A stretch of DNA of 64,000 nt from Pseudomonas cavernae (GTDB lineage: Bacteria > Pseudomonadota > Gammaproteobacteria > Pseudomonadales > Pseudomonadaceae). Every line of letters starts with the position of its first letter. The stretch's first letter is position 1. The translations under genes were made by a program, and so were the position numbers. The notes under the pieces were generated by a model. That model saw nothing but the letters and a program-made list of their open reading frames with translations. It did not search any database and was not told the DNA's origin. Location of the stretch: the NCBI RefSeq assembly GCF_003595175.1, contig NZ_CP032419.1, positions 4,526,001 to 4,590,000 of the forward strand. The letters run 5' to 3'. Shown piece after piece: positions 19,404 through 50,900 of this stretch.

Positions 19404-20132
19404 ATGGCCAAACGCAAGGCGGTACTGGTAGTGGGAGCCGGCGATGCCACCGGCGGGGCGATCGCCAAGCGCTTTGCCCGCGAGGGTTATGTCGCCTGCG
19501 TGGCGCGACGCCATGCCGACAAGCTGGAGCCGCTGGTCGCGGAAATCCAGGCCGCTGGCGGCCAGGCGCGGGCCTTCGGCTGTGACGCGCGGGTGGAAGA
19601 GCAGGTGCTGGAGATGTTCCAGACCATCGAGAGCGAAGTCGGCCCGCTGGAAGTGGTGGTGTTCAACATCGGCGCCAACGTGCAGTTCTCCATCACCGAA
19701 ACCACCGAGCGGGTCTACCGCAAGGTCTGGGAGATGGCCACCCTGGCCGGCTTCCTCACCGGCCGCGAGGCGGCCAAGGTGATGCTGCCGCGTGGCCGCG
19801 GCACAGTCATCTTCACCGGCGCCACCGCTTCGTTGCGTGGCCGCGCCGGCTTCGCCGCCTTCGCCAGCGCCAAGTTCGCCCTGCGCGCCCTGGCCCAGAG
19901 CATGGCCCGCGAGTTGGGCCCGCAAGGCATCCACGTCGCCCACCCGGTGATCGACGGTGCCATCGACACCGCCTTCATCCGCGACAACTTCCCCGAGCGC
20001 TACCAACTCAAGGAACAGGACGGCATCCTCAACCCCGAGCATATCGCCGAGCAGTACTGGCAACTGCATCGCCAGCCGCGCGACTGCTGGGTGCATGAGC
20101 TGGATCTGCGCCCCTGGACGGAAACCTTCTAA
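19404..20132 (+). CDS. Short-chain dehydrogenase/reductase-like protein, catalytic Tyr replaced
   Basis: 242-residue Rossmann-fold protein. Cofactor motif GAGDATGG (about residue 11), NIGAN in place of NNAG, and TGATASLRG with the structural Ser. At the YxxxK site the sequence is FASAK: Phe stands where the catalytic Tyr is expected while Lys is kept. ATG 19404 has GGAGG upstream; the open frame from 19323 runs through the operators and is not used. Likely controlled by the divergent HxlR gene. Its TAA is one copy of the 3-bp duplication flanking a repeat element. Substrate unknown. Confidence 0.85.
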   Translation: MAKRKAVLVVGAGDATGGAIAKRFAREGYVACVARRHADKLEPLVAEIQAAGGQARAFGCDARVEEQVLEMFQTIESEVGPLEVVVFNIGANVQFSITETTERVYRKVWEMATLAGFLTGREAAKVMLPRGRGTVIFTGATASLRGRAGFAAFASAKFALRALAQSMARELGPQGIHVAHPVIDGAIDTAFIRDNFPERYQLKEQDGILNPEHIAEQYWQLHRQPRDCWVHELDLRPWTETF

Positions 20133-20303
20133 GAACCTGTTCAATGTCTCGTGAGACCAGCACCTGTCATTGCCCGTCGGTGGAAAATGCTTCGCAGATT
20201 TCCACCCTACGCCAACGTTCAGACTTTGTAGGGTGGATAACGCTTTGCTTATCCACCATTACGCCGACACGGAGCGGTCACCGGAGTGACCTTGAACAGG
20301 CTC
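20133..20303. mobile_element. MITE-like element A, divergent member, 3-bp TAA duplication
   Basis: 171 bp with ends GAACCTGTTCAA and TTGAACAGGCTC (11 of 12 bases inverted-complementary). It is flanked by TAA on both sides (20130-20132 and 20304-20306); the left TAA is the stop codon of the dehydrogenase gene. No coding capacity. The interior carries two hairpins of the GTAGGGTGGA repeat family (20179-20210 and 20228-20257), so it differs from elements B-D except at its ends. Confidence 0.75.
20179..20257. repeat. Palindromic repeats, GTAGGGTGGA family, inside element A
   Basis: Two hairpin units: GGTGGAAAATGCTTCGCAG running to TTTCCACCCTAC (20179-20210), and GTAGGGTGGATAACG to GCTTATCCACC (20228-20257). 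The same units recur at 23520-23607 and 51803-51876. Confidence 0.8.
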
Positions 20304-20340
20304 TAAGCCGCCCCTATTTCCCCGCGACAAGGACAACAAG

Positions 20341-20928
20341 ATGAGCAAGACCGTGGAATTCTTCTTCGACTTCGGCAGCCCGACCTCCTACCTGGCCTGG
20401 ACCCAGCTGCCGAAGATTGCCGCCGCAGCCGGTGCGACCATCGTCTGGCGGCCACTGCTGCTCGGCGGCGTGTTCAAGGCCACCGGCAACCAGTCGCCGG
20501 CCGAGATTCCGGTCAAGGGCCGCTACATGAACCAGGACCTGGCGCGCTTCGCCAAGCGCTACGGCGTGCCGCTGCGCTTCAACCCCTACTTCCCGATCAA
20601 CACCCTGCACCTGATGCGCGGCGCCGCCGGCTACCAGGACGACCCGCGCTTCCACGCCTACCTGGCGGCGATCTTCCAGGCCATGTGGGTCGACGAGAAG
20701 CCCATGGGCCGCCCCGAAGTGGTCGCCGAAGTGCTCGCCGCCGCCGGCTTCGATCCCGCCGACTTCGAGCGACGGATCGGTGACGAGGCGGTCAAGGAAC
20801 GCCTCAAGGCCACCACCGAGGAAGCCATCGGCCGCGGCGTGTTCGGCGCGCCGAGTTTCTTCGTCGACGGCGAGCTGTTCTTCGGCCAGGACCGCCTCGA
20901 CTTCATCGCCGAGACCCTGACGAAATAG
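20341..20928 (+). CDS. DsbA-fold isomerase, 2-hydroxychromene-2-carboxylate isomerase family
   Basis: 195-residue thioredoxin/DsbA-fold protein related to GST kappa and NahD-type isomerases. The N-terminal FFFDFGSPTSYLAW gives the catalytic Ser in the DFGSP context. NTLHLMRGA follows in the middle and GVFGAPSFFVDGELFFGQDRL at the C-terminus carries the cis-Pro loop. NahD uses glutathione to isomerise 2-hydroxychromene-2-carboxylate in naphthalene breakdown, but many homologues sit outside catabolic clusters and have unknown substrates. Here it follows the dehydrogenase on the same strand, separated by element A. Confidence 0.87.
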   Translation: MSKTVEFFFDFGSPTSYLAWTQLPKIAAAAGATIVWRPLLLGGVFKATGNQSPAEIPVKGRYMNQDLARFAKRYGVPLRFNPYFPINTLHLMRGAAGYQDDPRFHAYLAAIFQAMWVDEKPMGRPEVVAEVLAAAGFDPADFERRIGDEAVKERLKATTEEAIGRGVFGAPSFFVDGELFFGQDRLDFIAETLTK

Positions 20929-21062
20929 GCCGCAACCAGCAAGCACGGGCGTTCCAAGCGACGAGCGGTTGACGTCAACGCCTAAGAAAGTCGACCGAAT
21001 GGTCGATTAAAGAAGCGCGCCACCGACCAAACGGAGCGCCTCGTTCTTGCTGGAGAAATGGA

Positions 21063-22997
21063 ATGTTCAACTGGCTCACCGACGCGCTGGGCAACGTCAG
21101 CGTTAACCGAAAATTGGCGCTTGGTTTCGGCATCGTCCTGGCGCTGACCCTGATGGTCGCCCTGATCGGCTGGCTCAACATGAGCACTATCATCGAGCGC
21201 GGCGACAAGCTCGCCAGTCTGTCCCAGCTCAATCTGCTGGCCAAGGACTTGCGCATTCACCGCCTCAGCTACCAGTCCAGCCGCGAGGCCGAAGACCGCG
21301 AGGCGGTGCTGCAGACCCTCGACAAGCTGGATCAGCACAACCAGCAGCTACTCGGCCGCCTAACCGACCCGCAGGATCGTCAGCTCCTGGACAAGCTGAG
21401 CGGCCATATCGACGACTATCGTCGCAGCTTCGCCGCGCTGATGAAGACCTTCGACAATCGCGAAAGTGCGCGGCAGAACCTGATCCAACAGGCGACGGCG
21501 GTCGCCGACAGCATCGTCAAGGTCGAGCAGGACATCATCAACGACGCTGGCGGCGCGATCGAGCAGCGCCTGCACGACCTGCATACCTTTGCCCAGTTCG
21601 GCCGCCAGGTGGTGCAGGCGCGCTTCCAGGCCTCCACCTATACCAGTGGCGACAATCAGGCGCACAAGGCCGCCGCCCTCGGCGCCGTCGACCAGACCAT
21701 CGAAGCCCTGCGCAGCCTGCGCGGCCAGGTCGGCAGCGGCCATGAAGCCGAACTGGACGAGTCCGCAGCAGCGCTGGCGACCTATCGGGCGACCCTCGCC
21801 TCGTTCTCCGGAGAGATCGACGCCAGCCTGGCGGCGCGCGAAACCATGGTGTCGCTCGGCGGACAGATCGAAGGACTGAGCGATGAGCTGAGCGACCGTC
21901 AGGCCGCCAAGCGCGACGCCGCCGCCGAGCACGCCCGTCTGCTGATCAGCCTCGGCGTGGCCCTGGCCCTGCTGCTGGGCATCGGCGCCGCCTGGACGAT
22001 CACCCGGCAAATCGTCGCACCGCTGAACGACACCCTGGCCGCCGCCAACCGTATCGCGTCCGGCGACCTCAGCCAGGACGTACGCGCCAACCGCCGCGAC
22101 GAACTCGGCCAGTTGCAACAGGCGATGCAGCGCATGACCCTGAGCCTGCGCGAGCTGGTCGGCCGCATCCACGACGGCGTGACGCAGATCGCCAGCGCCG
22201 CCGAACAGCTTTCCGCGGTCACCGAACAGACCAGTGCCGGGGTCAACAGTCAGAAGGTCGAGACCGACCAGGTCGCCACCGCGATGAACGAGATGGCCGC
22301 CACCGTGCAGGAAGTCGCGCGCAACGCCGAGCAGGCCTCCGAGGCCGCCGCGGAAGCCGATCGCGAAGCCAGCCAGGGTGATCGTGTGGTCAGCGACGCC
22401 ATCGCGCAGATGGACCGCCTGGCCGCCGAGGTGCAGAGCTCGGCCAACGCCATGGAACAGCTCAAGCAGGAAAGCGCGAAGATCGGCAGCGTGCTCGACG
22501 TGATCAAGTCGGTCGCCGAGCAGACCAACCTGCTGGCGCTCAACGCGGCCATCGAGGCGGCGCGCGCCGGTGAGGCCGGGCGTGGCTTCGCGGTGGTCGC
22601 CGACGAGGTGCGCGGCCTGGCGCAGCGCACGCAGAAATCCACCGAGGAAATCGAAGAGCTGATCGCCGGCCTGCACAGCGGTACCCAGCAGGCCGCCAGC
22701 CGCATGGACAGCAGCCGCGAGCTGGCCGGGCGCACCGTCGAACTGGCGCGCAAGGCCGGCGACGCGCTGGCCAGCATCAACCAGCGGGTGTCGAGCATTC
22801 AGGCGATGAACCTGCAGATCGCCGCGGCCGCCGAGGAACAGAGCGCGGTGGCCGAGGAGATCAACCGCAGCGTGATCAGCGTGCGCGACATCTCCGAACA
22901 GACCGCCGCGGCCAGCGAGGAGACCGCCGCCTCCAGCACCGAGCTGGCGCGCCTGGGCGGCGAACTGCAGGCGCTGGTCAACGGCTTCCGCCTGTAA
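21063..22997 (+). CDS. Methyl-accepting chemotaxis protein, probably with HBM sensor domain
   Basis: 644-residue transmembrane chemoreceptor. TM1 at about 18-38, a large helical periplasmic region (about 40-288, the size of a helical bimodular HBM domain), TM2 at about 292-312, HAMP about 312-365, then the signalling hairpin with the invariant tip [19 protein letters not shown] and [15 protein letters not shown]. In P. aeruginosa the gene at this place (after rsmE, before a UPF0158 gene) is PA5072/McpK, an HBM receptor for alpha-ketoglutarate. Orthology is inferred from synteny and architecture; the ligand is not shown by the sequence. Confidence 0.93.
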
Positions 22998-23046
22998 CGC
23001 CGATAGGGGTAGGATCAGCGGGTAAGCCATTGCAGGGGAACCGGCC

Positions 23047-23475
23047 ATGCGCCCGCTGACTATCGATCTCGACGAACTGGCCTTTGCCCTGAATACCGCC
23101 GGGCTTGACCACTACCTGGACCTGCTCAGCGGCAAGGTCGCGCTGATTCCCGTCGAGGATGCCGACCCCGAACTCGAGGCCTTGCTGCAGGCCGAGCCGG
23201 AACGTTTTCTGTTGATCGACCCGCTCAGCCCCGGCCAAGCCTTGGCGCTGATGCAGGAGTTCCTGGTCGAAGTCGGCGATCCGCACGCCTACGCCGTGCT
23301 GGAGCACGCCCTCGCCAGGCGCAAGCCGTTTCGCGCGTTCAAGCATGCGCTGCTGGCCTATCCGCAGCTGCTGGAGGCCTGGTATGCCTTCGAGGCCGCG
23401 CGCCTGCGCGAACTGGCCCTGGACTGGCTGGAGGAGAACGAACTGCAGGCGGCCCAGGGCCATACTTGGCATTGA
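23047..23475 (+). CDS. UPF0158 family protein
   Basis: 142-residue acidic cytoplasmic protein of the UPF0158 family: LTIDLDELAFALNT start, ALMQEFLVEVGDP in the middle and FRAFKHALLAYPQLLEAWY towards the end. No catalytic motif is evident and the function is unknown. It follows the chemoreceptor by 49 bases on the same strand, as in P. aeruginosa PA5072-PA5073. Repeats begin 45 bases after the stop. Confidence 0.85.
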   Translation: MRPLTIDLDELAFALNTAGLDHYLDLLSGKVALIPVEDADPELEALLQAEPERFLLIDPLSPGQALALMQEFLVEVGDPHAYAVLEHALARRKPFRAFKHALLAYPQLLEAWYAFEAARLRELALDWLEENELQAAQGHTWH

Positions 23476-23519
23476 GCGCGTCGCAGGATGAGCTCCCCCC
23501 TGCAAGCGCTTACAGCAAT

Positions 23520-23607
23520 GTAGGGTGGATGTCGCGCAGCACATCCACCGGCCTTTTGGGGTGGCAAACGCTTCGCGGTTTTCCACCCTACGACTACCCC
23601 ACCCTAC
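23520..23607. repeat. Palindromic repeats, GTAGGGTGGA family
   Basis: 88 bp with GTAGGGTGGATGTCGC to GCACATCCACC as one hairpin, then GGGTGGCAAACGC to TTTTCCACCCTAC as a second, and a further CCACCCTAC. It lies downstream of the UPF0158 gene and just before element B; together they fill the 344-base spacer 23476-23819, which holds no gene. Confidence 0.8.
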
Positions 23608-23623
23608 GCCGGCGTCCTGCTTA

Positions 23624-23819
23624 GAGCCTGTTTAGGATCTCGCGAGCTAAGGTCAGACAAGGCGAAGTCGGGCGAAGACGCACAGTTTACGAGTTGTAAA
23701 TGAGCAGTACTCGTTTCACTCGCCCTCCGGGCCGCGCTGAAGCGCGTTAGCCGCAAGCGGCTTGCTGAGCCCGACTTCAACGCGGTATGGCCGACGTGCA
23801 GCAGATCATCAACAGGCTC
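23624..23819. mobile_element. MITE-like element B, 3-bp TTA duplication
   Basis: 196 bp. Left end GAGCCTGTTTAGGATCT, right end AGATCATCAACAGGCTC, imperfect 17-bp inverted ends. Flanked by TTA at 23621-23623 and 23820-23822; the right copy is the TAA stop of the reverse-strand ABC ATPase gene. Shares TCTCGCGAGCTA near the left end, ACGAGTTGTAAATGAGCA in the middle and GGCCGACG near the right end with elements C and D, but has an extra GC-rich hairpin section. Confidence 0.82.
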
Positions 23820-24554
23820 TTACAGCACCTGCTTGAGGAAGGCCTGCGCGCGCGGGTCCCGCGGCTGGGCGAAGAACTGCGCCGGCGGGGCGTCTTCGAG
23901 CAGCTTGCCGTGATCGAAGAACAGCACGCGGTCGGCCACTTCGCGGGCGAAGCCCATCTCGTGGGTGACGCAGACCATGGTCATGCCTTCCACGGCCAGC
24001 TGCTTCATCACGTCGAGCACCTCGCCGACCATTTCCGGGTCGAGCGCCGAGGTCGGTTCGTCGAACAGCATCACCTTCGGCTCCATGCACAGCGCGCGGG
24101 CGATGGCCACCCGCTGCTGCTGGCCGCCGGACAGGCGCGAGGGGAATTCGTCGGCCTTCTGGGCGATGCCGACCTTGGCCAGCAGCGCGCGCGCCTTGTC
24201 CTCGCGTTCGGCCTTGCCGCGCTTGCGCACCACCTTTTGCGCCAGGCACAGGTTCTCCAGCACGGTCATATGCGGGAACAGGTTGAAGTGCTGGAACACC
24301 ATGCCGACTTCGCGGCGGTAGGCATTGACGTCGGTCTTCGGGTTGGCCAGGTCGAGGCCGTCGATGCTCACCGAGCCGGAATCGAGCTCCTCCAGGCCGT
24401 TGAGGCAGCGCAGGAAGGTCGACTTGCCGGAACCGGACGGACCGATCACCACCAGCACCTCGCCGCGTGCCACCGAGGTCGACACGTTGTCCACCGCGCG
24501 CACCTCGTGGCCGCGGGCATCGAAGACTTTTACCAGATCACGGACTTCAATCAC
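23820..24554 (-). CDS. Polar amino acid ABC transporter, ATP-binding protein
   Basis: 244-residue ATPase of the GlnQ/HisP type. Walker [10 protein letters not shown] (about 38-46), Q-loop [12 protein letters not shown], signature [10 protein letters not shown], Walker [14 protein letters not shown] and the H-loop VTHEMGF are all intact. It energises the importer encoded by the two upstream genes. Its start overlaps the permease end by eight bases. Its TAA stop is one copy of the duplication flanking element B. Confidence 0.95.
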
Positions 24555-25509
24555 TTTGCGCGAGCCTCCGTTCCAGGCGGTTGGCGATTTGCGACAGCGG
24601 CAGGTTGATCACCAGGTACAGCGCCGCCACGCAGAACCAGATCTCGAAGGTCGAGAACGAGGTGGTGATCGCCTCGCGGCCGCTCTTGGTCAGCTCGGTG
24701 ATGGCGATCACCGAGACCAGCGAGGTGTCCTTGACCAGACTGATGAACTGCCCGGCCAGCGGCGGCAGCACGCGCTTGAACGCCTGCGGCAGGATCACGT
24801 GACGCATGGTCTGCGGTGCGGTCAGGCCCAGCGAGCGGGCCGCCTCGTTCTGGCCCTTGGCGATCGACTGCACGCCAGCGCGGACGATCTCGGCGACATA
24901 GGCGCCGGTGAACAGCGCCAGCGCCGCCACCCCGGCGAACTCGCGCGACAGGTTCAGTACCGTGCCGATGAAGAAGTAGAAGATGAAGATCTGCACCAGC
25001 AGCGGCGTGCCGCGCACCAGTTCGACATAGACGGTCGACAGGTCGCGCAGGGTCGAGTTCTTCGACAGCCGGCAGAGGCCGGTGGCCAGGCCGATCAGCA
25101 GGCCACAGGCGCCGGACAGCACGGACAGCCACAGCGTGGTCCACAGCCCCCAGAGCAGCGGGCCGGCCGCCCAATGACGGGTCACGCCGATCTCGTCGCC
25201 TTCGCTGACGTCATCGCCCGGGGCGACCTTGAGGCTGTCCTTGGCGACGCTCAGCTGCGTCTCGCCGCCGCTCTCGTTGGCCAGGGTCACCAGGGCCTGC
25301 TCGCCTTGCTCGGCGATGGCCTTGACGCTGGCGTAATCGGGCGCGCGTTGCGCTTCTTCGGCCTGATAGGCGAAATACTGCGGCACCCGACTCCAGCGCC
25401 ACTCGTAGGAGATCAGCGAAGTCGAGAACCACAGGGCGTAGGCCAGGGCGATGAGGATCAGGCCGGTGAGCAGATGCCAGGGCCACTGGGCGTGTTTCGG
25501 TTTAGCCAC
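24547..25509 (-). CDS. Polar amino acid ABC transporter, permease
   Basis: 320-residue permease. N-terminal helix (about 11-30), a long periplasmic loop (about 35-115) unusual for the short HisM type, then the permease core with the EAA loop ([21 protein letters not shown]). [14 protein letters not shown] is the family signature. The extended N-terminal loop resembles GltJ/YhdX-like permeases. Forms an operon with the binding protein upstream and the ATPase downstream, equivalent to P. aeruginosa PA5074-PA5076. Confidence 0.92.
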
Positions 25510-25532
25510 GGGTCGGTTTCCCTAAAATGCAA

Positions 25533-25555
25533 ACGCGCAGGCCGGGCCTGCGCGT
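25533..25555 (-). terminator. Intercistronic hairpin between binding-protein and permease genes
   Basis: Perfect 11-bp inverted repeat (ACGCGCAGGCC and GGCCTGCGCGT, one base between). On the reverse strand it is followed by TTTGCATTTT. In the 72-base gap after the binding-protein gene it would protect that message or partly terminate, giving more binding protein than membrane components, as in other amino acid ABC operons. The role is inferred. Confidence 0.6.
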
Positions 25556-25581
25556 CGAGTCTTGAAGCGTAGCCGAACGGC

Positions 25582-26373
25582 TTACTCCATCTCTTTCAGC
25601 CACTCGGTCTTCTTGAACCACTTGGCGTGGATACGCTCGTAGGTGCCGTCATGGTGGATCTGGTTGAGGAAGTTGTTGATCCAGTTGAGGCTGTCGTAGT
25701 CGCCCTTCTTCAGGCCGAAGGCCAGCGGCTCGTAGGTGAACGGCTCATCCAGGTAGACCAGTTTGCCGGCGCCGGCCTTGTTCACCGCCACCACGTTATA
25801 CGGCGCGTCGTAGATGAAGGCGTCGGCCTTGCCATTGACCACGTCCATCACCGCTTCCTGCTCGTTGTCGAAGCCGTGGTACTGGGCCTTGGCGATCAGC
25901 TTCTTGGCGACCATCTCGCCGGTGGTGCCGATCTTCGAGGTGATGCGGTACTGCGCGTCGTTGAGGTCCTTGTAGGACTTGATCTTGTCCGCCAGCTCCT
26001 TGCGCACCAGCAGGGTCTGGCCGACCACGATGAAGGGTTCGGAGAAGTTCAGACGCAGATTGCGCTCCTGGGTCAGGGTCATGCCCGAGCCGATCATGTC
26101 GAACTTGTTGGTCAGCAGCGCCGGGATGATGCCGTCGTAGCTGGTGGACACCAGCTCCAGCTTGACGCCCATGGATTTGGCCATGGCTTTCAGCAGGTCG
26201 ACTTCGAAGCCGATGATCTCGCCGCGCTTGTTGGTCATCTCGAACGGCATGTAGGTCGGGTCCATGCCGACGCGCAGGGTGCCGCTCTTGACCGCGTCGT
26301 CGATCATCCCGGCGTGGGCCAGGCCGCTCAGGGCGCAGGCGGAAAGCAGCAGGGTGGCGAGAAATTTCTTCAT
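25582..26373 (-). CDS. Polar amino acid ABC transporter, periplasmic binding protein
   Basis: 263-residue family-3 solute-binding protein with a signal peptide (MKKFLATLLLSACALSGLAHA, cleaved after AHA, written here only as its type). The mature part begins GMIDDAVKSGTLRVGMDP. The SBP_bac_3 core is shown by DLLKAMAKSMGVKLELV, DGIIPALLTNKFDMI and MTLTQERNLRLNFSEPF. I chose ATG 26373; the frame opens seven codons earlier. First gene of this reverse operon. The amino acid carried is not determinable. Confidence 0.93.
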   Translation of the reverse strand: MKKFLATLLLSACALSGLAHAGMIDDAVKSGTLRVGMDPTYMPFEMTNKRGEIIGFEVDLLKAMAKSMGVKLELVSTSYDGIIPALLTNKFDMIGSGMTLTQERNLRLNFSEPFIVVGQTLLVRKELADKIKSYKDLNDAQYRITSKIGTTGEMVAKKLIAKAQYHGFDNEQEAVMDVVNGKADAFIYDAPYNVVAVNKAGAGKLVYLDEPFTYEPLAFGLKKGDYDSLNWINNFLNQIHHDGTYERIHAKWFKKTEWLKEME

Positions 26374-26515
26374 GGCGAATCCTCGATTGGGCAAAGGGGA
26401 CGTGGGCGCGCGGCGCCCACCGGCAAAAATGTGCGGCGCATGCTAACTGGCATCAGCAAAGATGGCGAGTCGACAAAAGGCAAGAGACGCGCCAGCAGAC
26501 GACCTGCAGGTCAAC

Positions 26516-28445: not shown

Positions 28446-28448
28446 ACC

Positions 28449-28527: not shown

Positions 28528-28564
28528 CGACTGGACTGGCAATAGCCGTAGCGGAGCGCTATCA

Positions 28565-28704
28565 GAACCTGTTCCGGATCTCGCGAGCTAGAGTCAAACA
28601 AGGCAAAAACGGCTGAGGAAGCGGAGTTTACGAGTTGTAAATGAGCATTCCGAAGCCATTTTTAACGCCGTTTGGCCGACGCGCAGCAGATCCGAGACAG
28701 GTTC
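28565..28704. mobile_element. MITE-like element C, 3-bp TCA duplication
   Basis: 140 bp. Left end GAACCTGTTCCGGATCT and right end AGATCCGAGACAGGTTC are inverted repeats matching at 16 of 17 positions. Flanked by TCA at 28562-28564 and 28705-28707; the right copy is the TGA stop of the reverse-strand lipocalin gene. Interior nearly identical to element D. No open frame of note; it can fold into a long imperfect hairpin (AACGGC and GCCATTTT/GCCGTTT arms). Confidence 0.88.
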
Positions 28705-29265
28705 TCAGCGCTTGCCGATCTGCTCGTCCGGGGTGCGCCAGATCAGCTTGCTGGTGTCGTAGTCGCGATGGTGCGCCTCGTCCAGCAGTTTCTCGCGCAC
28801 CTGTGGCGTCACCTGCGGCTCGCGCGACAGCAGCCACAGGTAGTCGCGATCGGGGTTGCCGACCAGCGCGGTGCGGTAGTCCTTGTCCAGGTACAGCACC
28901 CAGTATTCGCCCTTGCTCAGGCCCGGGGCGAGCGAGGAAAACCAGTTGTCGAAGCGCACCCACAGCTTGTTGGTTTCGCCCTTCTCCTGCGGCTCGGCGC
29001 GGCCGTCGGCCTGCAGCCATTCGCCCTCGGCATTGCGGCAGCGGTTGGTGACCGCGAGGCTGCCATCGTCTTGCAGCCGATAGTGGGCCTCGGCTTGCGC
29101 GCAGTCACGCTGGATGAACATCGGCAGGCGCGCCAACTCGTACCAAGCGCCCTGGTAGCGCTGCAGGTTGACCTTGTCGACGGTCTTCGGCGGCACCGGG
29201 CCGGTGCCGGAATTGGCGCAGCCGGCCAGGACCAGCACGGCGCATAATGCTAGAAACTTGCGCAT
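28705..29265 (-). CDS. Outer-membrane lipoprotein of the lipocalin family (Blc-like)
   Basis: 186 residues. Lipoprotein signal with lipobox LAGC (Cys about 16, Ala at +2, so sorted to the outer membrane). Lipocalin signature GAWYELARLP at about residue 39, TNRCRN in the mid barrel, and YRTALVGNPDRDYLWLLSR as structurally conserved region. Blc-type lipocalins bind lysophospholipids and are linked to envelope stress. The stop codon TGA is part of the element C target duplication. A small lipoprotein gene lies ten bases upstream, probably in one transcript. Confidence 0.93.
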   Translation of the reverse strand: MRKFLALCAVLVLAGCANSGTGPVPPKTVDKVNLQRYQGAWYELARLPMFIQRDCAQAEAHYRLQDDGSLAVTNRCRNAEGEWLQADGRAEPQEKGETNKLWVRFDNWFSSLAPGLSKGEYWVLYLDKDYRTALVGNPDRDYLWLLSREPQVTPQVREKLLDEAHHRDYDTSKLIWRTPDEQIGKR

Positions 29266-42970: not shown

Positions 42971-43014
42971 CGCCCGCCACTCGTAACCTAGCCGGATGCT
43001 CATTGCCGGCGCGC

Positions 43015-43146: not shown

Positions 43147-43155
43147 AGGATAGAG

Positions 43156-43212
43156 CACAGCCAGTTTCGGGGACCTTGGTACAGGCAGGCCGGGGAATCC
43201 CCTCTTTTATTC
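43156..43212 (+). ncRNA. Probable NrsZ-like nitrogen-regulated small RNA
   Basis: A transcript from the sigma-54 promoter would start near 43156 and meet GGGG-AAT-CCCC (43192-43202) followed by TCTTTT, a short terminator-like hairpin, giving a RNA of about 55 bases. In P. aeruginosa the sRNA NrsZ lies in the same place (between ntrC and PA5126) and is sigma-54/NtrC dependent. Identity rests on position, promoter and lack of a gene; the boundaries are estimates, and the transcript could run further into the antisense of the next gene. Confidence 0.55.
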
Positions 43213-43644: not shown

Positions 43645-44104
43645 GTTTCACGTCATCCTTTTTCAACCGGAAATTCCACCGAATACCGGCAACATTATCA
43701 GGCTGTGCGCCAACAGCGGTTGCAGCCTGCACCTGATCGAGCCGCTCGGCTTCGAACTGGACGACAAGCGCCTGCGCCGCGCCGGTCTGGACTACCACGA
43801 GTACGCCCAGGTACAGCGCCACCCCGACCTCGCCAGCTGCCTGCAGAGTCTCGGCCAGCCGCGCCTGTTCGCCTTCACCACCAAGGGCTCGCACGCCTTC
43901 CACGAAGTCCAGTACCGCCCCGGCGACGCCTTCCTGTTCGGCCCGGAAAGCCGCGGCCTGCCGGAAGAGGTGCGCAACGCGCTGCCGCCGGAACAGCGCC
44001 TGCGCCTGCCGATGCGCCCCGGCTGCCGCAGCCTGAACCTGTCCAACACCGTGGCGGTGACGGTGTATGAGGCCTGGCGCCAGCAGGGTTTCGCCGGGGC
44101 GTAA
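43643..44104 (+). CDS. trmL: tRNA (cytidine(34)-2'-O)-methyltransferase
   Basis: 153-residue SPOUT enzyme that methylates the wobble base of tRNA-Leu. MFHVILFQPEIPPNTGNIIRL start, FGPESRGLP (motif 2) and LSNTVAVTVYEAWRQ (motif 3 of the knot) are diagnostic. I chose ATG 43643; the longer open frame upstream is a shadow of the opposite gene. Its TAA stop lies inside the first bases of a GTAGGATGGG-type repeat. Confidence 0.96.
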   Translation: MFHVILFQPEIPPNTGNIIRLCANSGCSLHLIEPLGFELDDKRLRRAGLDYHEYAQVQRHPDLASCLQSLGQPRLFAFTTKGSHAFHEVQYRPGDAFLFGPESRGLPEEVRNALPPEQRLRLPMRPGCRSLNLSNTVAVTVYEAWRQQGFAGA

Positions 44105-44179
44105 GATGGGTTGAGGAGCGTAGCGACGATACCCATCATGCCGATGCCCATGGGTATCGCTTCGCTCAACCCATCCTAC
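44101..44179. repeat. Palindromic intergenic repeat, GTAGGATGGG family, overlapping the trmL stop
   Basis: 79 bp, the same length as the copy at 28449. Begins GTAAGATGGGTTGAG (GTAA instead of GTAG) and ends CTCAACCCATCCTAC. The changed base makes the TAA stop codon of trmL. Confidence 0.87.
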
Positions 44180-44204
44180 GGCTACTCGCACCTTGTCGGC
44201 GCCC

Positions 44205-44232
44205 ATAAAAAACGCCGCTAAAAAGCGGCGTT
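44205..44232 (-). terminator. Rho-independent terminator of secB
   Basis: AACGCCGCT (44211-44219), AAAA loop, AGCGGCGTT (44224-44232). On the reverse strand the 9-bp stem is followed by a run of T (complement of 44205-44212). Confidence 0.9.
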
Positions 44233-44249
44233 TGATACCCGGTCGGGGC

Positions 44250-44735
44250 TTAGGCCTGGGCCGGCGCCGTGCCGGCGGCCTGCATGCGCGCCAGTTCCTG
44301 GGCATACAGGGCATCGAAGTTCACCGGCGACAGCATCAGCGCCGGGAACGAGCCGCGCACCACCAGGCTGTCCAGGGTTTCGCGCGCGTAGGGGAAGAGG
44401 ATGTTCGGGCAGAACGCGCCGAGGGTGTGGCTCATGGACGCCGGGTCCAGGCCCTTGATCAGGAAGATGCCGGCCTGCTGCACTTCGGCGATGAAGGCGA
44501 CTTCTTCACCGGTCTTGACCGTTACCGAGAGGGTCAGCACCACTTCATGGAAGTCGCCTTCCAGGGCCTTCTGGCGAGTGTTCAGATCCAGCGCGACGCT
44601 CGGGTTCCACTCCTGGCGGAAGATTTCCGGGCTCTTCGGCGCCTCGAAGGACAGGTCGCGGACATAGATGCGCTGCAGGGAGAACTGCGGGTTCTGCTCG
44701 TCCGGAGCAGCGCCACTGGTTACTTGATCGGTCAT
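44250..44735 (-). CDS. secB: Protein-export chaperone SecB
   Basis: 161-residue tetrameric chaperone that keeps preproteins unfolded and delivers them to SecA. Recognised by [20 protein letters not shown] (split: [19 protein letters not shown]), [17 protein letters not shown] and [11 protein letters not shown]. Last gene of the reverse yibN-grxC-secB operon, the same order as in enterobacteria. Confidence 0.97.
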
Positions 44736-44777
44736 AGCGGAGCCTTCTTCTTATACGGGTTTGTACGGGGTGAACAT

Positions 44778-45032
44778 TCAGGCCTCGAGCAGCGCGTCCA
44801 GCTTGCCGGCGCGCTCCAGGGCGTAGAGGTCATCGCAGCCACCGACATGGGTGCTGCCGATCCAGATTTGCGGCACCGAAGTGCGCCCGGCCTTGTGGCT
44901 CATCTCGGCGCGCAGCTGCGGCTGGCCATCGACTTTGATTTCCTCGAAGGCCACGCCCTTGCTCGCCAGCAGTTGCTTGGCGCGCATGCAGTAGGGGCAC
45001 CAGTCGCTGGAATAGACGACGACGCTGGGCAT
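44778..45032 (-). CDS. grxC: Glutaredoxin 3
   Basis: 84-residue dithiol glutaredoxin with active site CPYC (residues 12-15), the cis-Pro region TSVPQIWIG and glutathione-binding GGCDDL. It reduces protein disulfides with glutathione. One base separates it from the upstream rhodanese-like gene; secB follows after 42 bases. Confidence 0.96.
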   Translation of the reverse strand: MPSVVVYSSDWCPYCMRAKQLLASKGVAFEEIKVDGQPQLRAEMSHKAGRTSVPQIWIGSTHVGGCDDLYALERAGKLDALLEA

Positions 45033-45033
45033 C

Positions 45034-45447
45034 TCACTTCACCAGCGGCAGATTGTCGGCGCGCCAGCTGCCTATCCCGCCGCCCAGCTTGGCGGCGTTG
45101 AAGCCGGCCTTCTTCAGCTCGCGGCAAGCGGTGCCGGCATGCTGGCCCATGGCATCGACCACGATCAGGGTCTTGGCCTTGTGCTTGTCCAGCTCGCTCA
45201 TGCGCGCGACGAGCTTGTCGTAGGGGATGCTCAGCGCATCGACGATGTGCCCGCTGGCGAAGTCCTTGCTGCTGCGCACGTCGACCACCAGGCCGCCGTC
45301 GCTGTTGACCAGCGCGGTGAGCTCGCGGCTGCTCAGGCTTTTGCCGCCCTTGTTCAGTTCGGTGACGATCAACAGCGCCAGCAGCACGGCGAACAATCCG
45401 CTCAGTACATAGTGGTTAGAGACAAATTCAATCAGGTGGGCAAGCAT
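45034..45447 (-). CDS. YibN-like membrane-anchored rhodanese-fold protein, no catalytic Cys
   Basis: 137 residues: N-terminal membrane helix (about 12-30, VLSGLFAVLLALLIV) and a rhodanese domain (GGLVVDVRSSKDFASGHI, then VVDAMGQHAGTACRELKKAGF, each as fragments). At the active-site loop the expected Cys is Asp (VVDAMG), as in E. coli YibN, so sulfurtransferase activity is unlikely. I chose ATG 45447; the frame is open 16 codons further. Heads the operon with grxC and secB, pointing to an envelope or export role. Confidence 0.9.
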   Translation of the reverse strand: MLAHLIEFVSNHYVLSGLFAVLLALLIVTELNKGGKSLSSRELTALVNSDGGLVVDVRSSKDFASGHIVDALSIPYDKLVARMSELDKHKAKTLIVVDAMGQHAGTACRELKKAGFNAAKLGGGIGSWRADNLPLVK

Positions 45448-45591
45448 CACGTGGTTCCACAACCGTAAAATGGCGGCCAGTATACACAGGCCCAAAGGTC
45501 GGCCAAACCCCGTCCGGCGGTGACGCCAACGGAACTTGGCTTTAAAATGCCGCTCTTTTTTTCACCCCCTTAGCGCAACCGAGTCGACCCC

Positions 45592-47127
45592 ATGACTGCT
45601 ACGCCAAAACCGCTGGTTCTGATCATCCTCGACGGCTTCGGTCACAGCGACAGCCCCGAATACAACGCCATCCATGCCGCCCGCACGCCGGTCTACGACC
45701 GCCTGTGGGCGACTCAGCCGCACAGCCTGATTTCCGGCAGCGGCATGGATGTTGGCCTGCCGGACGGGCAGATGGGTAACTCCGAGGTCGGCCACATGAA
45801 CCTCGGCGCCGGCCGCGTGGTGTACCAGGACTTCACCCGGGTGACCAAGGCGATCCGTGACGGCGAGTTCTTCCAGAACGCCGTGATCAACGGCGCGGTC
45901 GACCAGGCCGTGGCCACCGGCAAGGCCGTGCACATCCTCGGTCTGCTCTCCGATGGCGGCGTGCACAGCCACCAGGACCATCTGGTGGCCATGGCCGAAC
46001 TGGCCGCCCAGCGCGGCGCCGAGAAGATCTACCTGCACGCCTTCCTCGACGGGCGCGACACTCCGCCGAAGAGCGCCCAGCCGTCGCTGGAACTGCTCGA
46101 CGCCACCTTCGCCCGCCTCGGCAAGGGCCGCACCGCCAGCCTCATCGGCCGCTACTTCGCCATGGACCGCGACAACCGCTGGGACCGCGTCGCCCAGGCC
46201 TACAACCTGATCGTCGACAGCCAGGCCGAGTTCAGCGCCGCCAGCGCCGTCGAGGGCCTGGAGGCCGCCTATGCGCGCGGCGAGAGCGACGAGTTCGTCA
46301 AGGCCACCCGCATCGGCGCGCCGGCGCCGGTGGCAGACGGCGACGCCGTGGTGTTCATGAACTTCCGCGCCGACCGCGCGCGCGAGCTGACCCGCGCCTT
46401 CGTCGAGCCGGACTTCCAGGAATTCGCCCGCGCCCGCCAGCCGCAGCTGGCCGGCTACATCATGCTCACCCAGTACGCCGCCAGCATCCAGGCGCCCAGC
46501 GCCTTCGCCCCGGCCAGCCTGGACAACGTGCTCGGCGAATACCTGGCGAAGCATGGCAAGACCCAGCTGCGCATCGCCGAGACCGAAAAATACGCCCACG
46601 TCACCTTCTTCTTCTCCGGCGGCCGCGAAGAGCCGTTCGAAGGCGAAGAGCGCATCCTCATTCCGTCGCCGAACGTCGCCACCTACGACCTCAAGCCGGA
46701 GATGAGCGCCCTGGAAGTCACCGACCGCATCGTCGAGGCCATCGAGCAGCAGCGTCACGACGTGATCATCGTCAACTACGCCAACGGCGACATGGTCGGC
46801 CACACCGGCGTGTTCGCCGCCGCGGTGGCCGCGGTGGAATGCCTGGACGGCTGCGTCGGCCGCATCGTCGCCGCGCTGGACAAGGTCGGCGGCGAGGCAC
46901 TGATCACCGCCGACCACGGCAACGTCGAACAGATGGAAGACGAGTGCACCGGTCAGGTGCACACCGCCCATACCTGCGAACCGGTCCCCTTCATCTATGT
47001 CGGCAAACGCCCGCTTAGTCTGCGCGAAGGCGGCGTGCTGGCCGACGTAGCGCCGACCATGCTCAAGCTGATGGGCCTGGCGCAGCCGGCGGAAATGACC
47101 GGCACCAGCATCATCGAGCTGCAATAA
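45592..47127 (+). CDS. gpmI: 2,3-bisphosphoglycerate-independent phosphoglycerate mutase
   Basis: 511-residue manganese enzyme of glycolysis interconverting 3- and 2-phosphoglycerate. Alkaline-phosphatase fold with catalytic Ser64 in [14 protein letters not shown]. Metal-binding sites at LIILDGFG (start), [13 protein letters not shown] and ADHGNVEQM near the end. Standard length. A 145-base spacer separates it from the divergent yibN gene. Confidence 0.97.
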
Positions 47128-47144
47128 CCTCGCCCGCGCCTAGC

Positions 47145-47170
47145 GAAGCCCCGGCCAGTGCCGGGGCTTC
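47145..47170 (+). terminator. Terminator hairpin of gpmI
   Basis: 11-bp stem GAAGCCCCGGC / GCCGGGGCTTC with a 4-base loop (CAGT), 18 bases after the gpmI stop. The T-run is weak (GGCGTTTCC). Confidence 0.75.
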
Positions 47171-47302
47171 GGCGTTTCCAGGCAGCCGTTGCGGCACCCT
47201 GCAGATCCGCGCCCACGCCCGCCATCCGCGGCACGGGCGTTTTTTTTGCCACGCTCCGCGGGCATACTAGGCCGGTCCTCCCTCCTCGGTGTCACACGCC
47301 CC

Positions 47303-48568
47303 ATGCCTCGTGCCCTGCTTGCCCTTCTTTGCCTCTGCTTGCTCAGCCCGGCCATGGCCGATCAGCGCGCGGAAACCCAGCAGCAGCTGGAAGCGGCGCG
47401 CAAAGACATCAACGAGCTGAAAAAACTGCTCAACCAGGTCGAGCAGGAAAAATCCGGCGTGCAGAAACAGCTGCGCCACACCGAAACCGAGATGGGCGAC
47501 CTGGAAAAGCAGGTCAAGTCCCTGCAGGACGAGCTGAAGGACAGCGAGACCGAGCTGCAGCGCCTGGATGACGAGAAAAAAAAACTCGACAGCGCGCGCC
47601 ATGAACAGCAGCGCCTGATCGGCATCCAGGCCCGCGCCGCCTATCAGGCCGGCAATCAGGAGCCCCTGCGTCTGCTGCTCAACCAGCAGCAGCCGGCGCA
47701 GTTCTCGCGCACCCTCACCTACTACGAATACCTCGGCCAGGCGCGGGTCGACCAGCTCAACACCTTCAATGAAACGCTGCGCCAGCTGGCCAATGTCGAG
47801 CAGGACATCGCCACCCAGCAAAGCCGCCTGAACGAACAGAAAAGCGCCCTCGACGGCCGCCGTGAGCAGCTGGCGCAGGTGCGCAAGGAGCGCCAGCTGG
47901 CCCTGGCGCAACTGAACCAGCAGTCCAGCGAACGCAGCCGCAAGCTCAAGGCCCGCGAGCAGAACCAGGCCGAGCTCGGCCGCGTGCTGAAAACCATCGA
48001 GGAAACCCTGGCCCGCCAGGAGCGCGAAGCCAAGGCCGCCGCCGAAGCCGCCCGTCAGCGCGCGCTGGCCGAGCAGCGTCTGGCCGCCAGCCAGCCGCCA
48101 AGCAAGGCCAAGCCGGCCGCTGCCGGGCCGCTGGTGTCCAGCAGCGGCGCCAATTACGGCGGGCCGTTCGGCCAGGCGCGCGGCAAGCTGCCGTGGCCGG
48201 TCAGCGGCCGTCTGGTGGCCCGCTACGGTGCCCCGCGCGGCGGCGACGCGCGCAGCACCTGGGACGGCGTGCTGATCGGCGCCAGCGCCGGCAGCCAAGT
48301 GCGCGCCGTGCACGGCGGCCGGGTGGTGTTCGCCGACTGGTTGCGCGGCGCCGGGCTTCTGGTCATTCTGGATCATGGCAACGGCTACCTGAGCCTCTAC
48401 GGCCATAATCAGAGTCTGTTGAAAGATGCCGGCGATATCGTCAAGGCCGGCGAGCCGATCGCCACCGTTGGCACCAGTGGCGGGCAAGACGCCCCGGCCC
48501 TGTATTTTGCGATTCGTCAGCAGGGCCGCCCCAGCGACCCCGCTCAGTGGTGCCGCGCGCAGGGCTAG
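47303..48568 (+). CDS. envC: Murein hydrolase activator EnvC-like (LytM domain)
   Basis: 421 residues. Signal peptide ends AMA (about 19); two long coiled coils follow (about 22-110 and 160-265, Gln/Glu/Lys-rich), then a basic Ala-rich linker and a C-terminal LytM/M23 domain (about 300-421; LDHGNGYLSLYGHNQSLL). The first zinc-ligand region reads GGDARSTWDGV without the HxxxD His, so the domain is degenerate, as expected for an activator of amidases rather than an enzyme. I chose ATG 47303; the frame opens upstream at 47189 through the gpmI terminator area. ctpA follows after 49 bases. Confidence 0.92.
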   Translation: MPRALLALLCLCLLSPAMADQRAETQQQLEAARKDINELKKLLNQVEQEKSGVQKQLRHTETEMGDLEKQVKSLQDELKDSETELQRLDDEKKKLDSARHEQQRLIGIQARAAYQAGNQEPLRLLLNQQQPAQFSRTLTYYEYLGQARVDQLNTFNETLRQLANVEQDIATQQSRLNEQKSALDGRREQLAQVRKERQLALAQLNQQSSERSRKLKAREQNQAELGRVLKTIEETLARQEREAKAAAEAARQRALAEQRLAASQPPSKAKPAAAGPLVSSSGANYGGPFGQARGKLPWPVSGRLVARYGAPRGGDARSTWDGVLIGASAGSQVRAVHGGRVVFADWLRGAGLLVILDHGNGYLSLYGHNQSLLKDAGDIVKAGEPIATVGTSGGQDAPALYFAIRQQGRPSDPAQWCRAQG

Positions 48569-48617
48569 GAAGCTCGCGTCTTGGTAGCGCCGCACATTAT
48601 TTAGGAGTCAGTCTCAC

Positions 48618-49934
48618 ATGCCGCATTTGCCCCGCCTCACTTCCCTGGCTGCCGCGCTTGCGCTGCTGCTAGGCGCGCCGCTGCTGCCAGCCGCCGAGTC
48701 GAGCCCGCCGGCGGTCGACGCCGCCGCCAAGGACAAGGCGCCGCTGCCGCTGGATGAACTGCGCACCTTCGCCGAGGTCCTCGACCGAGTGAAAGCCGCC
48801 TATGTCGAGCCGGTGGACGACAAGACCCTGCTGGAAAATGCGATCAAGGGCATGCTCAGCAACCTCGACCCGCACTCGGCCTATCTCGGCCCCGAGGACT
48901 TCCAGGAACTGCAGGAAAGCACCAGCGGCGAGTTCGGCGGCCTGGGCATCGAGGTCGGTATCGAAGACGGCTTCGTCAAGGTGGTGTCGCCGATCGACGA
49001 CACCCCGGCGTCCAAGGCCGGCATCCAGCCCGGCGACCTGATCATCAAGATCGACGGCCAGCCGACCAAGGGCCTGTCGATGATGGAAGCGGTGGACAAG
49101 ATGCGCGGCAAGCCGGGGCAGAAGATCCAACTGACCCTGGTGCGCGAAGGCGGCCAGCCCTTCGACCTGGAGCTGACCCGCGCGGTGATCAAGGTCAAGA
49201 GCGTCAAGAGCCAGCTGCTCGAAGCCAACTACGGCTACCTGCGCATCACCCAGTTCCAGGTCAACACCGGCGAGGAAATCGGCAAGGCCCTGGCCAAGCT
49301 GCGCAAGGACAACGACGGCAAGAAGCTGCGCGGCCTGGTCCTCGACTTGCGCAACAACCCCGGCGGCGTGCTGCAGTCGGCAGTGGAGGTCGCCGACCAC
49401 TTCCTCAAGAAGGGTCTGATCGTCTACACCAAGGGCCGCATCGCCAATTCCGAGCTGCGCTTCTCCGCCGACCCGGCCGACGCCAGCGAAGGCGTGCCGC
49501 TGGTGGTGCTGATCAACGGCGGCAGCGCCTCGGCCTCGGAGATCGTCGCCGGCGCCCTGCAGGACCACAAGCGCGCGATCCTGATGGGCACCGACAGCTT
49601 CGGCAAGGGCTCGGTGCAGACCGTGCTGCCGCTGAGCAACGAGCGCGCGCTGAAGATCACCACCGCGCTGTACTTCACCCCCAACGGCCGCTCGATCCAG
49701 GCCCAGGGCATCATTCCGGACATCGAAGTGACCCGCGCCAAGATCACCCGCGAGCAGGATGGCGAGATCTACAAGGAAGCCGACCTGGCCGGCCACCTCG
49801 GCAACGGCAACGGCGGCGCAGACAAACCGAGCGCCAAGAAGGCGGCCGCCATGCCGCGCCCACAGGACGACGACTTCCAGCTCGGCCAGGCGCTCAACCT
49901 GCTCAAGGGCCTCAACGTCACCCGCGGCGGCTAA
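48618..49934 (+). CDS. ctpA: Carboxyl-terminal processing protease CtpA (S41)
   Basis: 438-residue periplasmic serine protease. Signal peptide (about 1-24), PDZ domain (about 105-185; SPIDDTPASKAGIQPGD as fragment), and S41 core with the Ser nucleophile in NGGSASASEI and Lys in DSFGKGSVQT. The C-terminus is Ala/Lys-rich and ends LLKGLNVTRGG. In P. aeruginosa CtpA with LbcA degrades peptidoglycan cross-link hydrolases. Operon gpmI-envC-ctpA matches PA5131-PA5134. Confidence 0.95.
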   Translation: MPHLPRLTSLAAALALLLGAPLLPAAESSPPAVDAAAKDKAPLPLDELRTFAEVLDRVKAAYVEPVDDKTLLENAIKGMLSNLDPHSAYLGPEDFQELQESTSGEFGGLGIEVGIEDGFVKVVSPIDDTPASKAGIQPGDLIIKIDGQPTKGLSMMEAVDKMRGKPGQKIQLTLVREGGQPFDLELTRAVIKVKSVKSQLLEANYGYLRITQFQVNTGEEIGKALAKLRKDNDGKKLRGLVLDLRNNPGGVLQSAVEVADHFLKKGLIVYTKGRIANSELRFSADPADASEGVPLVVLINGGSASASEIVAGALQDHKRAILMGTDSFGKGSVQTVLPLSNERALKITTALYFTPNGRSIQAQGIIPDIEVTRAKITREQDGEIYKEADLAGHLGNGNGGADKPSAKKAAAMPRPQDDDFQLGQALNLLKGLNVTRGG

Positions 49935-49957
49935 ACCGGCGGAGCGACTGCAGAAAC

Positions 49958-49987
49958 AAAAAACCCGGGCCTTGGTCCGGGTTTTTT
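49958..49987 (+). terminator. Rho-independent terminator of ctpA
   Basis: AAAAAACCCGG (49958-49968), an eight-base loop that can itself pair, then CCGGGTTTTTT (49977-49987). 23 bases after the ctpA stop and 18 bases before element D. Confidence 0.92.
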
Positions 49988-50005
49988 ATGGGCCCATCGG
50001 CCTTA

Positions 50006-50144
50006 GAACCTGTTTCGGATCTCGCGAGCTAGAGTCATACAAGGCAAAACGGCTGAGGATGCGGAGTTTACGAGTTGTAAATGAGCATTCCGAAGCCGTT
50101 TTTAACGCCGTTTGGCCGACGCGCAGCAGATCCGAGACAGGTTC
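50006..50144. mobile_element. MITE-like element D, 3-bp TTA duplication
   Basis: 139 bp. Left end GAACCTGTTTCGGATCT and right end AGATCCGAGACAGGTTC are inverted at 16 of 17 positions. Flanked by TTA at 50003-50005 and 50145-50147; the right copy is the TAA stop of the reverse-strand binding-protein gene. Differs from element C by only a few bases, so both are recent. No coding capacity. Confidence 0.9.
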
Positions 50145-50900
50145 TTACAGATAGCTGTTGAGGATGTCATCAACGAAGCCCTCGGCACGCATCTGCTCCA
50201 GCGCGGCCTGGAGCTTCTGCACCACCTCGTCCGGCACATCCTTGTTCAGCGCCAGGAACAGCTCGGCGCTGTTGAAGCGCAGCACGGTCTTCAGCCCGGA
50301 CACGCCCTCCTGCTTGGCCAGGTAGCGCCCGGCCGGATCGCCGCTGGCCCACAGGTCGATCTGCCCGCTCTCGAGCTTCTTGGCATTCTCCTGGTCGCGC
50401 AGCGCGGTGATCGGCTCCAGCTTGTGCTGGGTCAGGTACTCGGCGATGGCATCGCCCTTGTAGGCGCCGATCTTGTACTGCTTGGCCTGCTCCAGGCTGC
50501 CGAGGGTGATCGGGCTGTCGCTCTTGGCCAGCAGCACCCAGTCGTCCGGACCGATCGGACCGACCCACTTGAACAGCTGCTCGCGCTCCGGCAGACGGGC
50601 GGTGACGAACACGCCGTAGTCCGGCTTCTCCAACGCCAGCTTGTAGATGCGGTCCCAGGGGAAGCGCAGGGTCAGGCTGTACTTGATCCCGGCGCGCTTG
50701 AACATCTCGCGCACGATGTCGGCGGCGATGCCGTCGATGTTGTCTTCCTGGGCGAAGTTCTTGCCGTTGATCGCCATGTTGTAGGGCGGGAAGTTCTCGG
50801 TCAGCAGGACCACGCTGTAGTTTTCGTCCACTTCGGCGCGCGCGGCGGTGGAGAGCACCAGCAAGGTGCCGGCAAACGTGAGCAGCAGGCGTTTCAACAT
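50145..50900 (-). CDS. Periplasmic solute-binding protein (family 3 type)
   Basis: 251 residues with a signal peptide ending ARA (about 22). The mature part has LLTENFPPYNMAINGK, DNIDGIAADIVREMFKRAG and WDRIYKLALEKPDYGVF, typical of the SBP_bac_3-like proteins found as orphans in pseudomonads rather than the classical amino acid importer type. No permease or ATPase adjoins it. It sits downstream of hisF on the same strand (112-base gap). The ligand is unknown. Its stop codon is the element D target. Confidence 0.87.
   Translation of the reverse strand: MLKRLLLTFAGTLLVLSTAARAEVDENYSVVLLTENFPPYNMAINGKNFAQEDNIDGIAADIVREMFKRAGIKYSLTLRFPWDRIYKLALEKPDYGVFVTARLPEREQLFKWVGPIGPDDWVLLAKSDSPITLGSLEQAKQYKIGAYKGDAIAEYLTQHKLEPITALRDQENAKKLESGQIDLWASGDPAGRYLAKQEGVSGLKTVLRFNSAELFLALNKDVPDEVVQKLQAALEQMRAEGFVDDILNSYL

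Follow-up and report, generated by a model that had tools for sequence, protein, structure and literature searches.

Stop-codon insertion by short hairpin elements of Pseudomonas cavernae that share an interior with elements bearing other ends

How can mobile DNA come to lie exactly at the stop codons of genes? Four short elements in the chromosome of Pseudomonas cavernae raise this question. They lie in a stretch of 64,000 nucleotides (contig NZ_CP032419.1, positions 4,526,001 to 4,590,000), called the window here, in which positions are counted from its first base. Elements A (20133-20303), B (23624-23819, forward strand), C (28565-28704, forward strand) and D (50006-50144, forward strand) have GARCCTGTT ends and 3-bp TNA duplications in common, and in all four one copy of the duplication is the stop codon of the predicted neighbouring gene. 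The coordinates, ends and flanks are all exactly as an initial annotation of the window had given them. B, C and D are members of a multi-copy, quasi-palindromic family of 140 bp, and A has the same ends with another interior. We report that most copies in this genome lie at stop codons, and that the interior of the family recurs in other bacteria with other ends.

The P. cavernae genome is one contig of 4.95 Mb. Among the 12 matches listed, local DNA identity to loci of named Pseudomonas was 84-88% at best. From the contig we took one 20-kb stretch every 35 kb, 120 in all, as far as 4.185 Mb, and with the window the sample came to 2.46 Mb (64% GC). A simple codon-usage caller predicted 2104 genes in this sample (82% coding). 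When the genome was searched with element D, 40 of 211 first-look candidates scored (41 matches were listed, one of them a reverse-strand overlap of another), and a pattern with perfect 8-bp ends retrieved 57 copies of 111-141 bp. Searching the sample for pairs of GARCCTGTT ends 60-400 bp apart, with at most two mismatches in total, gave 181 pairs. Identical 3-bp flanks were found in 41 of them, and these were TNA in 40 (TTA 17, TCA 11, TAA 6, TGA 6) and GGA in one. This pattern goes well past what chance would give and bears out the TNA targeting proposed in the initial annotation. An exact TNA duplication accompanied 15/19 pairs without end mismatches, 18/34 with one and 7/128 with two; most pairs with two mismatches are probably chance pairings.

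We assembled 53 elements, of which 41 have an exact TNA duplication (the 40 end pairs and one copy, flanked by TTA, from a profile search). In symmetrised reconstructions of the empty sites, the triplet was preceded by C and followed by G in 64 of 82; the target core is C-TNA-G. Pairs with identical flanks were 77-256 bp long (140 bp in 19/41), which leaves no room for a transposase gene. The elements are thus short, non-coding and present in many copies, with inverted ends, a target duplication and, as described below, empty alleles, as in miniature inverted-repeat transposable elements (MITEs). Because 17 of the 29 copies of 140 bp are at least 97% identical to another copy, their activity looks recent.

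The duplicated triplet lay at a stop codon in 32 of the 41 exact-duplication copies of the sample. The triplet itself was TAA or TGA in 29 of these; in the other three, TTA together with the first G of the element forms TAG, and the reconstructed empty sites already carried TAG or TAA. Among all 53 assembled elements, 36 were at a stop and one was within a predicted gene. A further 25 loci from outside the sample included 21 with exact TNA duplications, 15 of them at a stop, or 14 of 19 distinct insertions after removal of duplicates (L209 is L035 and L211 is L038; L numbers denote loci in this study). Combined, 46 of 60 distinct exact copies in the genome are at a stop (95% interval 64-87%), in keeping with the proposal that the duplication recreates the stop codon. 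One insertion (L133) supplies the stops of two convergent genes.

TNA had also been offered as the cause of this bias. TNA alone is insufficient as an explanation. Taking non-coding positions and stop codons as the usable target sites, stops make up only 9% of TNA sites. Their share rises to 24% for CTNAG, and to 32% when sites are weighted with a matrix that was trained on these same insertions. The observed 32/41 exceeds this last expectation (p 2.7e-9). When CTNAG sites were limited by their distance to a stop, the expected share rose to 47% within 200 bp (p 1.6e-7) and 70% within 50 bp (p 0.0008), and the matrix gave 77% within 50 bp (p 0.009). From these distance-limited expectations, the exact-stop preference near gene ends is largely the CTNAG preference, and the remainder is an excess at gene 3' ends. 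The 40 copies that could be placed by gap (of 41) fell into 20 convergent, 17 tandem and 3 divergent gaps; by intergenic bases, convergent gaps account for 19% and divergent gaps for 27%. The simplest reading is that much of the preference for stops comes from a C-TNA-G core together with survival at gene 3' ends. In clusters of another intergenic repeat in the same sample, marked by the motif GTAGGGTGG, the edge of the motif lay at a distance of 0-3 bp from a stop codon in 1/37, vs 32/41 for the elements described here, and of 4-20 bp in 15/37; these edges were taken from the 8-base motif, and the true edges may be closer to stops.

Comparison with relatives (genomes numbered with G) provided the empty sites. 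At all 13 gene ends in seven relatives that matched those of A-D the element was absent, and the 13 regions contained neither a profile match nor a GARCCTGT end, as expected from the MITE-like mobility that the initial annotation had suggested. In five of the 13, the far-side gene matched as well: for A in G027 and G014, for B in G027, and for C in G027 and G001. At A, for example, P. cavernae reads TTC TAA, the 171-bp element, then TAA GCC, and G027 reads TTC TGA GCA. Gene ends free of B were found in G027 (where the genes on both sides match), G001, G013 and G003; those free of C in G027 and G001 (again with matches on both sides), G013 and G028; and those free of D in G001, G012 and G014, in all three of which a paralogue of the gene follows. 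In the D regions, for this reason, and in the other regions with a differing far side, only the gene side is informative.

We consider it highly probable that the elements are MITEs mobilised in trans by a transposase of the IS5 family whose C-TNA-G target recreates stops, with selection as a filter and with exchangeable ends on an old hairpin maintained for its structure. A transposase from an IS5-family insertion sequence (IS) with the same 16-bp ends, of a type known on plasmids of other bacteria, would mobilise the elements, cutting at TNA with a preference for C-TNA-G and duplicating the triplet. Every TNA triplet is a TAA or a TGA on one of its two strands, so that insertion into a stop of either kind would recreate the stop and leave the protein unchanged. 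Insertions in genes and promoters would be purged by selection, so that the survivors would concentrate at stops, with half of the copies lying where two genes converge. The ends would belong to the transposase partner, and the interior would be an old, structure-maintained hairpin that bears the tips of several transposase types across bacteria.

Short end probes against plasmids located 849-bp IS5-family elements with the same ends and a TTA duplication, which supports the IS5-type parent named in the initial annotation. The ends are alike at 16/16 positions on Xanthomonas campestris pXcc1 (L400; GAACCTGTTCACGATC, flanks TTA/TTA), at 15/16 on Nitrosomonas stercoris plasmid 1 (L401, annotated 'IS5 family transposase ISStma16'; GAGCCTGTTTACGATC, flanks TTA/TTA) and at 12/16 in two Pandoraea loci (L398 and L399, flanks TTA/TTA). 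Both GAACCTGTTCACGATC and GAGCCTGTTTACGATC also serve as ends of copies with ends of type c, the type carried by element A. The transposase of L401 is read in two frames and matches NF033580 transpos_IS5_3 and PF01609/PF13340; the IS1031 group suggested in the initial annotation is a candidate assignment within IS5. Shrinkage of such an IS does not account for the elements. Their profile matches the three TNA-type ISs over model positions 1 to 44, 45 or 68 and no further (11.5-14.8 bits), and the conserved core of the interior is absent from 7/7 IS sequences examined; an origin as internal-deletion copies of that IS is rejected.

The search for a full IS with the same ends was successful in other bacteria only, and neither such an autonomous element nor the transposase was found in the P. 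cavernae genome. An autonomous element in the same genome is usual for MITEs, and it is not required. No long element with GARCCTG ends was found in the DNA examined before the plasmid probes. Candidate parents retrieved from the P. cavernae genome with PF01609 and PF05598 had other ends or none recognisable at the loci inspected (for PF05598, L395 only), and so had the inspected loci retrieved with PF13586 and PF13340 from this genome and 33 relatives. It is plausible that the transposase arrived by plasmid and was later lost. A plasmid of Comamonas odontotermitis holds MITE-like sequences (L404:1805-2069 and L402:1805-1874) that end in GARCGTGTTTACGATC and have another interior; L404 is flanked by a TTA/TTA duplication, and the flanks of L402, TTA/TTG, form no duplication.

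The interior has a wider distribution than the ends. About 100 bp of it are conserved across Pseudomonas, Halomonadaceae and others, and the tips of about 16 bp and the target duplications vary. A search of plasmids with element D gave interior-only matches in 13 Pseudomonas plasmids (P. syringae group, P. veronii) and in one Halomonas record. Three of these matches were read, and their flanks hold different ends together with duplications of 4 bp: TTAA for Halomonas and P. veronii, and CTAG, judged by eye, for P. tremae. A scan of named genomes with the core pattern retrieved at least 120 stretches; the 80 listed were mostly from Pseudomonas, and the matches listed also came from Halomonas/Vreelandella, Salinicola, Chromohalobacter, Stutzerimonas, Thiopseudomonas and Motiliproteus, as well as from Nitrosomonas, Methylococcaceae, Mariprofundales and two Bacteroidales bins. 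The core pattern was also seen in seven IMG/VR viral contigs (L410-L416).

By our own score, 49 of the 111 core copies with enough flank had a convincing end pair. Besides GARCCTGTT with TNA, the end types were CAGGCYGTTGAAA (duplications CTAG, TTAA, TTAG and CTAA), GYTYTGTACGAAA (CTAG), CCTCTGATTA (TTAA), GCTCTGAAA (TTAA, in one row), CAGGCYGTGTGAAA (with an inconsistent duplication) and CCTCTAAAA. Actual ISs with other tips were also found, with GTTCTGTACGAAAAGT and CTAG in L220 and with CCAGGCTGTGTGAAAA in the P. cavernae genome (L187-189). Used as probes, ends of type a matched two Pseudomonas plasmids at E<1e-3 and gave numerous weaker hits, and ends of type e retrieved Halomonas only.

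For a tree of the interior we aligned 63 elements, namely six P. cavernae copies (of 19 listed) and 57 others with end pairs 136-142 bp apart; L285, L334 and L328 had been excluded before the alignment. In the tree, built from 86 columns, the TNA type formed one clade with support 92. A first typing with eight labels required 19 changes on the tree (minimum 7; shuffled mean 39.7), and nine labels, with L198 and L298 retyped, required 18 (minimum 8; shuffled mean 39.9); these totals are rough, since the label 'o' is a mixed remainder. For the CTAG type b, found in Halomonadaceae and Pseudomonas, at least three changes are forced by well-supported branches. The set behaves like one satellite lineage whose transposase partner changed several times. 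An extra arm hairpin, GATCGGACTCGCGC-CGAG, is common to L197, L205 and L323, which belong to a genome of the same family, to one of the same order and to Chromohalobacter, and this shared sequence suggests transfer between families.

A fuller version of this reading seems to us evenly balanced between true and false. It holds that a single hairpin-satellite lineage has kept its interior and swapped its tips of about 16 bp and its targets (TNA, CTAG/TTAA and others) to use IS5-type or other transposases at hand, and that the innermost hairpin of about 30 nt, AGCGSAGTTTAC n4 TGTAAATGAGCATTT, may be its functional heart. Since a TNA target and a YTAR target can each be read as a stop, a change of partner would keep the element on stops. 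The inner hairpin recurs with wholly different long palindromic arms in the Bacteroidales bins (L285:1034-1057 and L334:3968-3991) and in the Mariprofundales bin (L328, two copies). The AGCG-A bases that flank it there lie outside the search pattern, and contamination of these bins is possible.

Several points count against the account given here. Our genes came from the simple caller and not from an annotation, and this caller misses some genes, which inflates the intergenic class. Fourteen of the 60 exact copies lie away from stops. Of the CTNAG sites that lie no more than 20 bp from a stop, 84% are stops, and against this share the exact-stop excess was not significant (p 0.077), so that a stop-reading mechanism is not demonstrated. 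The longer-frame transposase of L401 had no match in the P. cavernae genome, so the actual partner is unseen; this search of P. cavernae and 56 relatives, which used one of the two L401 frames, gave matches at 1e-5 in 3/57 genomes (65% identity over a piece of 64 aa in G042, and 36% in G024 and G032). As for the interior, the invariance of its central 20 bases was imposed by pattern and filter in all 57 rows from other genomes and proves nothing alone, the tip types were assigned with patterns and by visual inspection, and the tree of 86 core columns is weakly resolved, with 28/57 inner branches open.

A stop share above the genome-wide expectations from site composition would also arise if the transposase were aimed at gene ends, by a stop context beyond C-TNA-G or by the state of transcription termination. 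Stop positions were counted in 37 of the 49 rows with a convincing end pair, the 12 with other duplications being skipped. Stops were hit in 6/8 type-c rows, in 8/13 CAGGCYGTTGAAA rows (with TAG or TAA inside YTAR) and in 2/4 GYTYTGTACGAAA rows, where L169 and L313 are the same insertion with unlike calls. The YTAR types a and b of other species thus lie at stops in 10/17 rows (16 distinct), compared with the 11% that stops contribute to usable YTAR sites in P. cavernae, as aimed insertion would predict. However, all YTAR rows together give 11/27, with one Bacteroidales row among the 11, and the share used as the null belongs to a different genome. The loss of a significant excess within 20 bp of stops also speaks against such aiming, and the excess in convergent gaps fits selection. 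We regard aimed insertion as unlikely.

It may also be that the position is itself positively selected, with the hairpin serving as a terminator or as a stabiliser of the mRNA 3' end after the stop, and with copies elsewhere being lost. The hairpin of element C is long and stable (z -7.6 and -6.0 on its two strands), A-rich and T-rich runs occur in the paired arms, and, relative to the gene that receives the insertion at its stop, the core runs antisense in 33 cases and sense in 13 (p 0.0045, post hoc, with four unclear rows dropped), all of which would suit such a function. However, a simple consensus scan for intrinsic terminators (GC stem, short loop, direct T run) found none in the C and D regions, and on the reading strand D already has a GC-rich inverted repeat and a T run beyond the element. 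Terminator function therefore has no support at C or D. Searches of Rfam gave no match above the gathering cut-off and three sub-threshold matches (6 loci).

The way in which the hairpin has changed also favours pairing as DNA over pairing as RNA. Both sides have changed in 19 of the 28 consensus pairs, and 96.2% of alignment cells pair. Both-side changes numbered 248, vs 74 in shuffles, and the covariation score was 0.408, compared with 0.146 in shuffled and 0.03-0.07 in slid alignments. Wobbles made up 41/1698 cells (one invariant G-U pair excluded). RNA helices usually change via wobbles, and with so few of them the pairing seems to be maintained at the level of DNA. From the alignment, such pairing seems to be kept either by a function of the hairpin or by palindrome correction, and the data fit both. 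A terminator or stabiliser selected at stops is, in our view, improbable.

That the interior shared by elements with different tips reflects convergence or chance, and not common descent with tip change, is very improbable: the collection pattern does fix 20 central bases, palindromic DNA can self-correct towards symmetry, and only 33 of the 49 rows with convincing ends are 138-142 bp long, but a pattern-free search matched query positions 31-120 to the Halomonas copy at 81.5% (E 4e-13), far beyond the pattern, the near-invariant CAAGGC and TTTnAACGC columns lie outside it, and the pattern GTNTACNNNNTGTAAATGAGCATT, present in 6/369 genomes across the class with P. cavernae included, had no match in the same 369 when reversed.

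The four elements of the window differ in their make-up; the names of the genes next to them were assigned by eye. Element A (171 bp) has type-c ends, GAACCTGTT...AACAGGCTC, and TAA/TAA flanks. The left copy (20130-20132, forward strand) is the stop of a gene for a protein resembling short-chain dehydrogenases/reductases (SDR-like, 19404-20132), and the other copy is at 20304-20306. The conserved core is absent from A, with no match to the element profile, and its interior holds a GTAGGGTGG-type repeat instead. Repeats of the GTAGGGTGG...CCACCCTA type were seen both within A (20133-20303) and adjoining B (23480-23623).

Element B (196 bp) has GAGCCTGTT ends and TTA/TTA flanks, and its core is followed by extra hairpin DNA, with about 56 additional bases at the centre; the first part of the core, GTTTACGAGTTGTAAATGAGCA, is at 23685-23706 (forward strand). 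Its left duplication is at 23621-23623, and the right one (23820-23822) is on the reverse strand the TAA stop of the gene at 23820-24554, which by appearance encodes the ATPase of an amino-acid ATP-binding cassette (ABC) transporter. Element C (140 bp) is a typical full-length copy that forms one long hairpin, with its core GTTTACGAGTTGTAAATGAGCATT at 28626-28649 (forward strand). Its TCA/TCA flanks are at 28562-28564 and 28705-28707, the latter being the reverse-strand TGA stop of a lipocalin-like gene (28705-29238). Element D (139 bp) has its core at 50066-50089 (forward strand) and TTA/TTA flanks at 50003-50005 and 50145-50147. The right one is the TAA stop of the reverse-strand gene at 50145-50900, a periplasmic solute-binding protein by appearance.

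Several known systems resemble these elements in part. The 849-bp IS5-family ISs of X. campestris, Pandoraea and N. stercoris have the same ends and the same TTA duplication in a CTTA context, but they encode a transposase, their interior is without the core, and the element profile matches their ends only. The CORE-SINEs (short interspersed elements) of animals have a conserved central core and exchangeable ends that match different autonomous partners. These hairpin elements likewise combine a conserved core with exchangeable ends, but CORE-SINEs are eukaryotic retroposons, whereas the elements described here are bacterial DNA elements with inverted ends. Among the literature matches listed from open-access PMC, judged by titles and the beginnings of abstracts, none concerned stop-codon-targeting MITEs or this core, and a text query with the letters of the core gave listed matches that were unrelated by title.

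Within Pseudomonas, the part of the report on MITEPsy1 of P. syringae covered here describes a small IS5-type MITE of 100 nt with 18-nt ends, CTAG or YTAA duplications and demonstrated transposition, and mentions distant similar sequences that are perhaps widespread (PMC3189936). By this description, MITEPsy1 is alike in being a small IS5-type MITE of Pseudomonas and differs in length, ends and target. The repeats R0, R2, R6 and others of P. fluorescens are intergenic, several have flanking inverted repeats and some were termed MITE-like; they differ in size (e.g. 89, 110 and 177 bp), and the part of that account covered here makes no mention of stop-codon insertion or tip exchange (PMC2718517).

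These results provide a simple, testable reason for the high copy number of such elements in gene-dense, GC-rich genomes, namely that the target is itself a stop and the duplication heals the gene. The conserved interior with exchangeable ends is the larger point, and it is not visible from one window. If the elements have indeed changed partners, bacterial MITEs can be long-lived lineages that switch transposase, and not short-lived offcuts of one IS, and the family described here would be a bacterial counterpart of CORE-SINEs.

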